Below are positions 51,510 through 53,754 of a DNA stretch of 64,000 nucleotides, piece by piece. Source of the stretch: Bacteroidota bacterium (GTDB lineage Bacteria > Bacteroidota > Bacteroidia > NS11-12g > UBA955); contig JAIYAW010000008.1 in assembly GCA_027488835.1 (NCBI GenBank), positions 62,001 through 126,000 on the forward strand, written 5' to 3'. Both the position numbers and the translations under genes were made by a program. The notes below the pieces were generated by a model. That model was not told where the DNA came from. It saw only the letters and a list, made by a program, of their open reading frames with translations, and searched no databases. How positions within the stretch are numbered: the stretch's first letter is position 1; each line of letters starts with the position of its first letter.

Positions 51510-52178
51510 TTACTCTTTCCAAAGAGCTGAAAATAAAATGCCCGACAGCACTAGAATTAAACCATCTAGTGCTGTTAGCATTAAAATGTCCTTGTTTACT
51601 GAGCTAACTAGTATTGGATTAAATACTTTGTTGGATGCTTTAATGCCCAACAAAATCAACGGTAATATTACGGGTAAACTTAAAACAGGAGCCAAAAATC
51701 CAGCTTGGTTTGCTTTGGAGGCAATTGCGCCTATAAATGTAAATATTGTTGAAATTCCTCCAGTTACAAGAATCAATATTTTTATGTACGCAAACATGTG
51801 AATTACAGGAATTCCCATAAAAAATCCAAATAAGATTAAATTGATTAGGGTTAGAATGATCATTGTAATCCAACCGTAAATAATCTTTGACCATAATATT
51901 TGTCCTGGTGAAGATAACTGATTCCAATAAATCCATCGGTTTCGTGAAACTGTTAAAAATGATTTAGAAATCGCTTGTAATGTGCAGAATATTAATGTTA
52001 TCCAAAATAAACTATTCCAAATTTTGGTGGCTTTTTCTGGCTGAGACAGCATAGAGAGCATTGATAACATGGCCATTACTGCCATTTGCAATATGGCAGA
52101 AGCCAAAATTGCCGGTCGTTTTAAATCTAAGGACCATTCAATTTTTATAAGTGAAATTACTTTGGCAATACTGCGCAT
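51510..52178 (-). CDS. ccmB: Heme exporter protein CcmB
   Basis: 222 residues with six membrane helices. CcmB is the permease of the CcmAB(C) ABC system of cytochrome c maturation system I. The opening KVISLIKIEWSLDLKRPAILAS, the segment WNSLFWITLIFCTLQAISKSF and the late NKVFNPILVSSVNKDILMLTALDG are typical. ccmA, ccmC and ccmE are not in the window. It is divergent from accC across a 20-base palindrome that gives each gene a -7-like element. Confidence 0.9.
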   Translation of the reverse strand: MRSIAKVISLIKIEWSLDLKRPAILASAILQMAVMAMLSMLSMLSQPEKATKIWNSLFWITLIFCTLQAISKSFLTVSRNRWIYWNQLSSPGQILWSKIIYGWITMIILTLINLILFGFFMGIPVIHMFAYIKILILVTGGISTIFTFIGAIASKANQAGFLAPVLSLPVILPLILLGIKASNKVFNPILVSSVNKDILMLTALDGLILVLSGILFSALWKE

Positions 52179-52183
52179 CTTTT

Positions 52184-52203
52184 TTTACCTTCGCGAAGGT
52201 AAA
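52184..52203. promoter_or_regulatory. Palindromic two-way promoter between ccmB and accC
   Basis: TTTACCTTCGCGAAGGTAAA is a perfect 20-base palindrome, so TACCTTCG occurs on both strands (52186-52193 on +, 52201-52194 on -). The - copy ends 16 bases from the ccmB ATG, the + copy 62 bases from the accC ATG. A TTTG lies 21 bases before the + copy. Confidence 0.55.
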
Positions 52204-52254
52204 TCAGAATCTCAAACAGATAACGATTTCACAAATAATTTTATAACAACAAAA

Positions 52255-53754
52255 ATGTTTACCAAAATATTGATTGCAAACCGTGGTGAAATTGCCATTA
52301 GGGTAATGCGCACTTGCCGTGAAATGGGTATCAAAACCGTAGCTGTTTATAGTGAAGCAGATGCTTTGGCGCGTCATGTGCGCTATGCCGATGAAGCTTT
52401 TTGTATTGGAAAGGCCCCATCAAACGAAAGTTACTTAAAAATGGATACACTCATTGATTTGTGTATCAAGACAGGAGCACAAGCGGTGCACCCCGGTTAT
52501 GGTTTCCTTTCTGAAAATGCAATTTTTGCGCGTAAGTTGGTTGAGAACGGAATTGTTCTCATTGGTCCAAGTGCAGAGGCGATGGAAGTAATGGGAAGCA
52601 AGATTGCAAGTAAACAGGCGGTTGAGAAGTACGGTGTACCATTGGTTCCTGGTATCAATGAAGCCATTGTAGATTCAAATGCAGCTTTACAAGTGGCAAT
52701 TAGTATTGGATTCCCTGTTTTGGTGAAAGCATCTGCAGGCGGCGGTGGAAAAGGGATGAGGGTTGTAGAAAAAGAATCAGAATTTTTAAGTGCATTACAA
52801 ATGGCTCAAAATGAAGCCAGAAATGCATTTGGTGATGATAGCGTTTTTATAGAAAAATATGTAGGTAGTCCAAGGCATATTGAGCTACAAATTATGGCCG
52901 ATCAACATGGAAATGTTTGCCATTTGTTTGAAAGAGAATGCAGTATTCAAAGACGACATCAAAAATTGGTGGAAGAAGCACCAAGCATTGCTCTTACCGA
53001 AGAAATTCGCGAAAAAATGGGTCAAGCCGCGGTGAATGTTGCCAGAGCGTGTGATTATACTGGAGCGGGTACTGTTGAGTTTTTATTTGATGGGAAAGAT
53101 TTTTATTTTCTAGAAATGAATACCCGTTTGCAAGTAGAACACCCTGTTACTGAATTAATTACAGGATTAGATTTGGTTCGTGAGCAAATAAATGTGGCAG
53201 CTGGGTTGCCATTGTCCTTCAAACAAAATGAATTGAAAATTAATGGTCACGCCATAGAATTGCGTGTTTGTGCTGAAGATCCATTCCAACAATTTTTACC
53301 CAATATTGGTAAGGTAATTCAATATTTGGTTCCAAATGGTCCAGGAATTCGTGTTGACGATTGCATGGAATCCAACATGGAAATTCCTATTTATTACGAC
53401 AATATGCTGGCGAAGCTAATTGCTTGGGGTCCAACGCGTGAGGAAGCCATTTCTAGATTGCGCCGAGCCATTAAAGAGTATGTGATTACAGGTATTGAAA
53501 CTACACTAAGCTTTGGTGAGTTTGTTTTAACTCATCCGGCGTTTGTTTCAGGGAACTTTGATACTCATTTTATACAGAATTATTTCAACCCTGAAGAATT
53601 GGTTGCTGAAAAATTGTCTGAGGAAGAACTTTCTGTATTGGCAACTGCGGCCGTGGCATTCTTTGCTCAAAGTAAAAGCAATCAATCTGCGAATGTAGTT
53701 GACTACTCTTCTCATTCTGAATCAGAGTGGTATCGTGCTAGAAAAAATTATTAA
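52255..53754 (+). CDS. accC: Biotin carboxylase subunit of an acyl-CoA carboxylase
   Basis: 499 residues, ATP-grasp biotin carboxylase. LIANRGEIAIRVMRTCREMGI, HPGYGFLSENA, the ATP-site loop KASAGGGGKGMRVV, RECSIQRRHQKLVEEAPS and EMNTRLQVEHPVTE are diagnostic. The open frame reaches 52069, inside ccmB, but the ATG at 52255 gives the correct N-terminus (MFTKILIANRG) and lies after the promoter palindrome. The C-terminus is about 50 residues longer than E. coli AccC. No accB or carboxyltransferase gene is adjacent, so acetyl- versus propionyl-CoA carboxylase is open. Confidence 0.93.
   Translation: MFTKILIANRGEIAIRVMRTCREMGIKTVAVYSEADALARHVRYADEAFCIGKAPSNESYLKMDTLIDLCIKTGAQAVHPGYGFLSENAIFARKLVENGIVLIGPSAEAMEVMGSKIASKQAVEKYGVPLVPGINEAIVDSNAALQVAISIGFPVLVKASAGGGGKGMRVVEKESEFLSALQMAQNEARNAFGDDSVFIEKYVGSPRHIELQIMADQHGNVCHLFERECSIQRRHQKLVEEAPSIALTEEIREKMGQAAVNVARACDYTGAGTVEFLFDGKDFYFLEMNTRLQVEHPVTELITGLDLVREQINVAAGLPLSFKQNELKINGHAIELRVCAEDPFQQFLPNIGKVIQYLVPNGPGIRVDDCMESNMEIPIYYDNMLAKLIAWGPTREEAISRLRRAIKEYVITGIETTLSFGEFVLTHPAFVSGNFDTHFIQNYFNPEELVAEKLSEEELSVLATAAVAFFAQSKSNQSANVVDYSSHSESEWYRARKNY

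Follow-up and report, generated by a model that had tools for sequence, protein, structure and literature searches.

A palindrome between ccmB and accC as a probable bidirectional promoter built from two face-to-face Bacteroidota -7 boxes

Introduction

Bidirectional promoters have been described for the TATAAT box, and the near-symmetry of TATAAT explains them. Those characterized in E. coli and Salmonella (Warman, Grainger) have a short symmetric core that takes polymerase in two orientations; some lie between divergent genes, and two polymerases cannot bind together (PMC12825309, PMC10268837). As reported for E. coli, basal activity was too low for competition at all five bidirectional promoters tested, and repression of the opposite direction set in once one direction was substantially activated (PMC12825309).

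Within the Bacteroidota, the F. psychrophilum consensus is given as TAnnTTTG, spanning -12 to -5 (PMC9723704). In the account of F. johnsoniae, the -7 box is TAHHTTTG, with a nearly invariant T at -6, a distance of 4-5 nt from box to start, and a -33 element far less evident than the -7 box (PMC6847099). Titles and abstract openings, partial in coverage, yielded no two-way promoter in Bacteroidota; this is not proof of absence.

The locus considered here is like the E. coli and Salmonella cases in its short symmetric core, in its position between divergent genes and, on our reading, in offering two orientations to polymerase. We hold, with a probability of roughly 80%, that its palindrome is a compact bidirectional promoter, in which two primary-sigma -7 boxes stand face to face without a spacer. 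An earlier note on this DNA had proposed a two-way promoter, and the sequence supports the proposal: both halves look like -7 boxes of the form TAnnTTYG, and conservation extends to the two of them.

The palindrome and its flanking genes

The features of the locus, numbered within the window (the whole 64-kb stretch of DNA that was analysed), are as follows.

51510..52178, minus strand: ccmB, 222 aa, haem-exporter membrane subunit family (PF03379, 31.5 bits; cut-off 24.9)
52161..52164, plus strand: TTTG, candidate -33 element of accC, lying 21 nt upstream of the box and within the ccmB frame
52184..52203, no strand: TTTACCTTCGCGAAGGTAAA, perfect 20-bp palindrome between ccmB (minus) and accC (plus)
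52186-52201, within the palindrome: TACCTTCGCGAAGGTA, 16-bp core, two abutting putative -7 boxes
52186..52193, plus strand: TACCTTCG, putative -7 box toward accC, of the TAnnTTTG class but carrying C at -6 in place of T
52194..52201 (read 52201-52194), minus strand: TACCTTCG, putative -7 box toward ccmB, same class, C at -6
52188..52189, minus strand: predicted ccmB transcription start, from the 4-5 nt box-to-start distance of F. johnsoniae (PMC6847099)
52198..52199, plus strand: predicted accC transcription start, from the same distance (PMC6847099)
52255..53754, plus strand: accC, biotin carboxylase, 499 aa (TIGR00514, 640.4 bits; cut-off 626.5)

The earlier note had the sequence and coordinates of the palindrome exactly right: 52184-52203 holds two arms of 10 bp, 100% complementary, with a spacer of 0. 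No perfect palindrome in the window is longer, and the runner-up has 16 bp. Simulation (first-order Markov model of the window, 60 runs) predicts that chance supplies 0.13 perfect palindromes of 20 bp in 64 kb; length is therefore weak evidence, was dropped as a proof of function, and leaves the decision to conservation. The two full boxes meet at 52193/52194 and have no base in common, and the symmetry extends over the variable nn positions of the boxes and the flanking TTT/AAA.

A sigma-70 scan found no match at the palindrome, as expected of a phylum that, to our knowledge, is without TATAAT promoters. An RNA hairpin or attenuator was ruled out by inference, because the predicted starts would leave neither transcript with both halves.

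ccmB starts at 52178 on the minus strand and accC at 52255 on the plus strand, so that the end of the -7 box lies 15 nt from the ATG of ccmB and 61 nt from that of accC. For ccmB, the ABC-2 transporter profile PF01061 (29.8 bits) came close behind PF03379, and an NCBIfam profile search gave no match. The accC start was set at MFTKILIANRGEIA; over 52069-52254 the frame nevertheless stays open, across the palindrome and back to an ATG at 52069 that falls within ccmB, antisense to it. Automatic callers may set the accC start too far upstream. Conservation of the TTTG at 52161-52164 is uninformative because of the coding constraint on ccmB, and inspection of the minus strand by eye showed no -33 element for ccmB.

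Two further sites in the same genome may be recorded here. Apart from the palindrome, the genome holds one match to TANNTTYGCRAANNTA, namely TATCTTTGCAAAGGTA, at 627-642 of the window; it is probably a chance occurrence, as it lies inside an ORF (579-1592). A second ccmB-like gene (L213), on another contig and 34% identical, has no palindrome; by eye, a TATCTTTG box faces this paralogue.

The -7 box class in the window's genome

The genome that contains the window (G000) measures 2.49 Mb, and box statistics were taken from 464 kb of it (the window plus 20 stretches), with 370 upstream regions. Among TA..NNNN words with at least 12 hits, TA..TTTG was the most enriched upstream of genes (141 against 47.7 expected). 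Enrichment of TA..TTCG was weaker (26 against 14.0); for TA..TTCG followed by C it was as high as for TA..TTTG (12 against 3.2). TACCTTCG itself, found once upstream of genes against 0.7 expected, is too rare to judge; each box differs from TAHHTTTG by one mismatch, the C at -6. The TA..TTTG and TA..TTCG classes have their maximum 0-20 nt upstream of the ATG, and the accC box, at 61 nt, is farther out than is usual. On its sequence each half of the palindrome is a putative -7 box of the main Bacteroidota sigma factor, in the TAnnTTTG class but for the C at -6.

Conservation at ccmB loci

The survey set comprised 70 searchable genomes of the window's family, with a ccmB hit in 66. The exact 16-bp core occurs in 19 of the 70, one copy in each, and the same pattern read backwards in none of them; all 19 copies adjoin ccmB, and thus occupy 19 of the 66 ccmB loci. 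Opposed boxes of the form TAnnTTYG|CRAAnnTA are present at 42 of these 66. That the palindrome is a functionless product of chance would suit the simulated frequency, which amounts to roughly one in eight such windows, but beside a core kept in 19 genomes with no backward counterpart, and boxes paired at 42 loci, the idea is hardly credible.

The earlier note had tied the palindrome to the ccmB/accC gene pair, and this holds in part. Within the window's own genus (14 loci), the core is exact at 11 and variant at 2, and the accC-facing half is lost at 1. In genera g4 and g5 the accC-facing half is lost and the ccmB-facing half kept at 16 of 16 loci. Loci of other relatives that carry the palindrome show the same gene arrangement; they come largely from the same assemblies as the 70 family genomes and were left out as further evidence.

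The constant part of the pairs is the part that the sigma factor requires on either strand, but the search pattern already demanded TA and TTYG. What the pairs add independently is that G never stands at nn, that nn can be unequal, and that the gap changes. The boxes abut (gap 0) in 29 of the 42 pairs and stand 2 bp apart in 13, all 13 in a single genus, g13; gaps of 1, 3 or 4 bp were absent in a search from 0 to 4. G is found at nn in 0 of 84 boxes, in agreement with the TAHHTTTG of F. johnsoniae. The pairs fall into 16 distinct types, in 8 of which nn is alike on both sides and in 8 unlike; shuffling gives a mean of 3.2 alike types (p 0.002, with types related by descent and relatedness not corrected). 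This excess could be explained by equal strength of the two directions, by template-switch mutation or by a dimer, and it counts against the promoter reading, since two independent boxes need no matching nn.

The dimer deserves its own consideration, as the earlier note had offered a dimeric regulator as the alternative. In this perspective the palindrome would serve a dimeric transcription factor as its operator, through which ccmB and accC are controlled together, and it could overlap a promoter. The perfect symmetry, including nn and the flanking TTT/AAA, is what such a protein would want to see; the surplus of alike types (8 of 16) fits as well, as do the cases in which nn is equal on both sides yet not CC (TAAC/TAAC in G004/G006, and 13 of 15 g13 loci). 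Dimer operators would be expected to hold the letters and the spacing of their half-sites constant, and usually stand at several genes. Here fixed spacing fails, with the half-sites at gap 0 or gap 2; a fixed half-site sequence fails, with nn differing between sides in half of the types; and the exclusion of G from nn in all 42 pairs speaks against an operator too. Each of the 19 carriers has one exact copy. G000 has no other site within 2 mismatches, and at 3 mismatches it has 5 others against 18 for the backwards control; no regulator was found among the five genes tested around the palindrome, though a dedicated one may be encoded at a distance. The changes of gap, the one-sided changes of nn and the single site favour a promoter over an operator; the dimeric regulator, so weakened, is kept as a quite improbable alternative.

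For the two-way promoter, the two halves must both matter. The ccmB-facing box is the alignment anchor and its own conservation is inflated; the fair comparison is for the accC-facing box. Its mean pairwise identity in the 14 loci of the own genus is 87%; the 7 nt that precede this box reach 65%, and the 20 nt that follow the pair 48%. Across the family, a ccmB-facing TAnnTTYG box is present at 63 of 66 loci and was not found at those of G015, G021 and G031. A strict pair is missing at 24 loci, and 21 of these still have the ccmB-facing box: it lies 13-48 nt upstream of the aligned ccmB start at 19 of them and 98-105 nt upstream at 2.

Loss of the pair takes several forms. Throughout the 16 g4 and g5 loci, GATATTTG lies 8-10 nt before the aligned accC start (e.g. 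L010, L011, L012); it is only a candidate accC box, because upstream of genes in G000 it shows no enrichment (3 against 3.3 expected). In G001 the accC-facing half is lost and TATCTTTG lies nearer accC. Overall, accC-adjacent loci without the accC-facing half have another candidate box nearer accC in 17 of 17 cases. Both boxes are present in G034 (g14), 12 nt apart; at the three g2 loci no strict box points at the other gene; G015 has a box on that side alone; and two g9 loci have neither box near the start. A faint relic, CGATTTCA, noted by eye, may survive in some members of the own genus.

These losses are the natural ground for supposing that only the ccmB-facing box works, that the accC-facing half is a leftover, and that accC is started elsewhere. 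The near-universal ccmB-facing box agrees with this, as does the loss of the other in g4, g5 and G001, where accC has another candidate; so does the accC box of the window's own clade, which ends 61 nt before the ATG. Yet in G002 and G011 accC starts 12 nt past the core, with no other TA..TTYG box in between, and the accC-facing box keeps 87% identity where the 20 nt that follow the pair keep 48%. That all 17 accC-adjacent losers carry a replacement candidate also argues against a dispensable half, although GATATTTG is not enriched. We consider the leftover very unlikely.

Where the pair persists, it stays with ccmB while its partner changes. In several genera an extra gene separates ccmB from accC, and the pair faces that gene (e.g. 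L024, L063, L066, L070). In L024 the gene encodes 157 aa, whose weak similarity to TerB (17.3 bits) falls short of the 24.4-bit cut-off; by eye only, the g13 and g11 pairs face one and the same TerB-like gene. A search of G000 for the TerB-like gene came back empty, a result that by itself does not show its absence.

Against the promoter reading one must set the C at -6, the 61-nt distance to accC, the lack of an evident -33 element for ccmB, and the 24 of 66 loci without a strict pair.

The same architecture at other loci

Face-to-face boxes occur beyond ccmB as well. Sites matching TANNTTYGCRAANNTA fall in divergent gaps in 7 of 10 cases in G023 and 5 of 14 in G033, where such gaps make up 2.4% and 2.1% of positions. 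Restricted to intergenic sites, the divergent share is 7 of 8 in G023 (p 6e-4) and 5 of 9 in G033 (p 0.036). The ccmB site is one of the 7 and the fbp site one of the 5. Matches exist in 58 of the 70 genomes; when one site was taken from each of 26 family genomes, 10 lay in divergent gaps, among them the ccmB sites L152 and L170 and the fbp/aspartate kinase sites L157, L159 and L167 (L152 and L160 overlap the G023/G033 site sets). The gene caller picks the most upstream ATG, which misplaces some genes in these counts: the window's own site was not scored as divergent, and the fbp/aspartate kinase sites L161 and L164 were scored as tandem and coding.

A second case is in g13, a sister genus, at the divergent pair of class 1 fructose-bisphosphatase (fbp) and aspartate kinase. 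TAnnTTTG|CAAAnnTA with gap 0 stands there at 15 of 15 loci (L295-L309), drawn from 16 genomes with a hit, the sixteenth (G070) being split between contigs. The boxes end 17-19 nt before the kinase ATG; the pair's edges are separated by 9-11 nt from the kinase ATG and, as judged by eye, by roughly 12-25 nt from that of fbp. Outside g13, a strict pair at fbp/aspartate kinase was found at 0 of 15 loci and, in another set, at 1 of 20 (gap 3).

This second locus bears on a variant of the main reading, namely that the promoter is truly two-way and owes its perfect symmetry to template-switch mutation, which repairs imperfect inverted repeats, rather than to selection for equal strength. The variant is compatible with a bidirectional promoter; it would account for the excess of pairs with the same nn, and for nn that is equal but lineage-specific at two unrelated loci. 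Such repair would not be dominant, as nn is unequal in many pairs: in 8 of 16 types at ccmB, and at 6 of 15 loci at fbp/aspartate kinase. We regard it as unlikely, though worth keeping in view.

A genome-wide excess of symmetric sites was not relied on as evidence. Symmetric sites number 210 in the 70 genomes against 127 for the backwards control, with 114 against 39 in g13; the own genus (g1) shows no over-representation (34 against 31), g5 has 4 against 23, and gap-2 sites are fewer than the control (127 against 182 overall, 52 against 83 in g13). The control contains AAACGTTT or similar words that include a CpG. Across the phylum outside the family, divergent gaps held 4 of 15 forward sites and 6 of 25 control sites, the control having picked up the repeated ATGTAAACGTTTACAT; a phylum-wide class of face-to-face promoters is not established. 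ATGTAAACGTTTACAT is repeated within some Bacteroidota genomes, with as many as three copies in one (L279, L280, L282, L286, L287, L288), and the 6 loci classified are all intergenic; perhaps it is the operator of a regulator, as we presume from its look.

Within the family, one might go further: face-to-face primary-sigma promoters with enforced symmetry would form a standing class for unrelated pairs of housekeeping genes (ccmB/accC, fbp/aspartate kinase), and competition for one slot would balance the outputs, hence the matching nn. This we offer as a speculation that is rather improbable as it stands.

How the proposed promoter would work

The boxes are paired, they are conserved, and they vary in a manner that looks promoter-like. 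If they act as proposed, polymerase bound one way would start accC near 52198, and bound the other way would start ccmB near 52189. The predicted leaders are 56-57 nt for accC and 10-11 nt for ccmB. On the box-to-start distance, the starts on opposite strands would be 9-11 bp apart, each inside or next to the box of the opposite direction; the geometry would then admit one polymerase at a time, and steric blocking between two polymerases is likely. Activity in both directions, the positions of the starts and this exclusion are what we infer from the letters of the site.

The earlier note had suggested that the genes could be mutually exclusive. Physical blocking of polymerases, as the geometry would have it, is likely; mutually exclusive genes find no support as stated, given the little competition reported at the basal activity of five E. 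coli promoters (PMC12825309). The likeliest case is that both promoters are weak and basal and that the two housekeeping genes are only slightly coupled, since both boxes carry the unusual C at -6. That a haem-export gene and a lipid-synthesis gene share a promoter would reflect their being neighbours and not their pathways.

A conserved pair of whole asymmetric boxes would be a second way to build a bidirectional promoter. As the Bacteroidota box is without symmetry, the paired design suggests selection, and not a by-product of box symmetry. With boxes at gap 0, at gap 2, one-sided and split, the family also offers a ready-made series for measuring the coupling of two genes via one polymerase slot.

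Comparison with known systems

Set beside the primary-sigma promoters described for Bacteroidota (TTTG/TAnnTTTG), each half agrees in its letters except at -6, in the absence of G at nn, and in the closeness of the ccmB box to the ATG (PMC6847099, PMC9723704). It differs in the C at -6 in both boxes, in the lack of a clear -33 element for ccmB, and in that the boxes are face to face.

A near-palindromic promoter motif has been described in the same phylum, PM2 of Bacteroides thetaiotaomicron (PMC7366714). By its description, the motif has elements centred on positions -10 and -30 rather than -7, and the genes that carry it are reported as enriched for oxidative stress response (PMC7366714).

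From the E. coli and Salmonella promoters there are two differences. Starts on opposite strands there are mostly 10-23 bp apart, 18 bp being the commonest distance (PMC12825309, PMC10268837), whereas 9-11 bp is predicted here. In E. coli a near-symmetric TATAAT -10 element is shared by the two directions, as described in the same reports; TAnnTTTG is not self-symmetric, so the two directions share no box bases here and two whole boxes abut instead. We take a shared -10 element to be usual, not defining, and so count the palindrome as a variant of the bidirectional promoter. On its sequence we file the arrangement of abutting, non-overlapping boxes as a new variation on the bidirectional promoters, one that would work as those of E. 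coli do.
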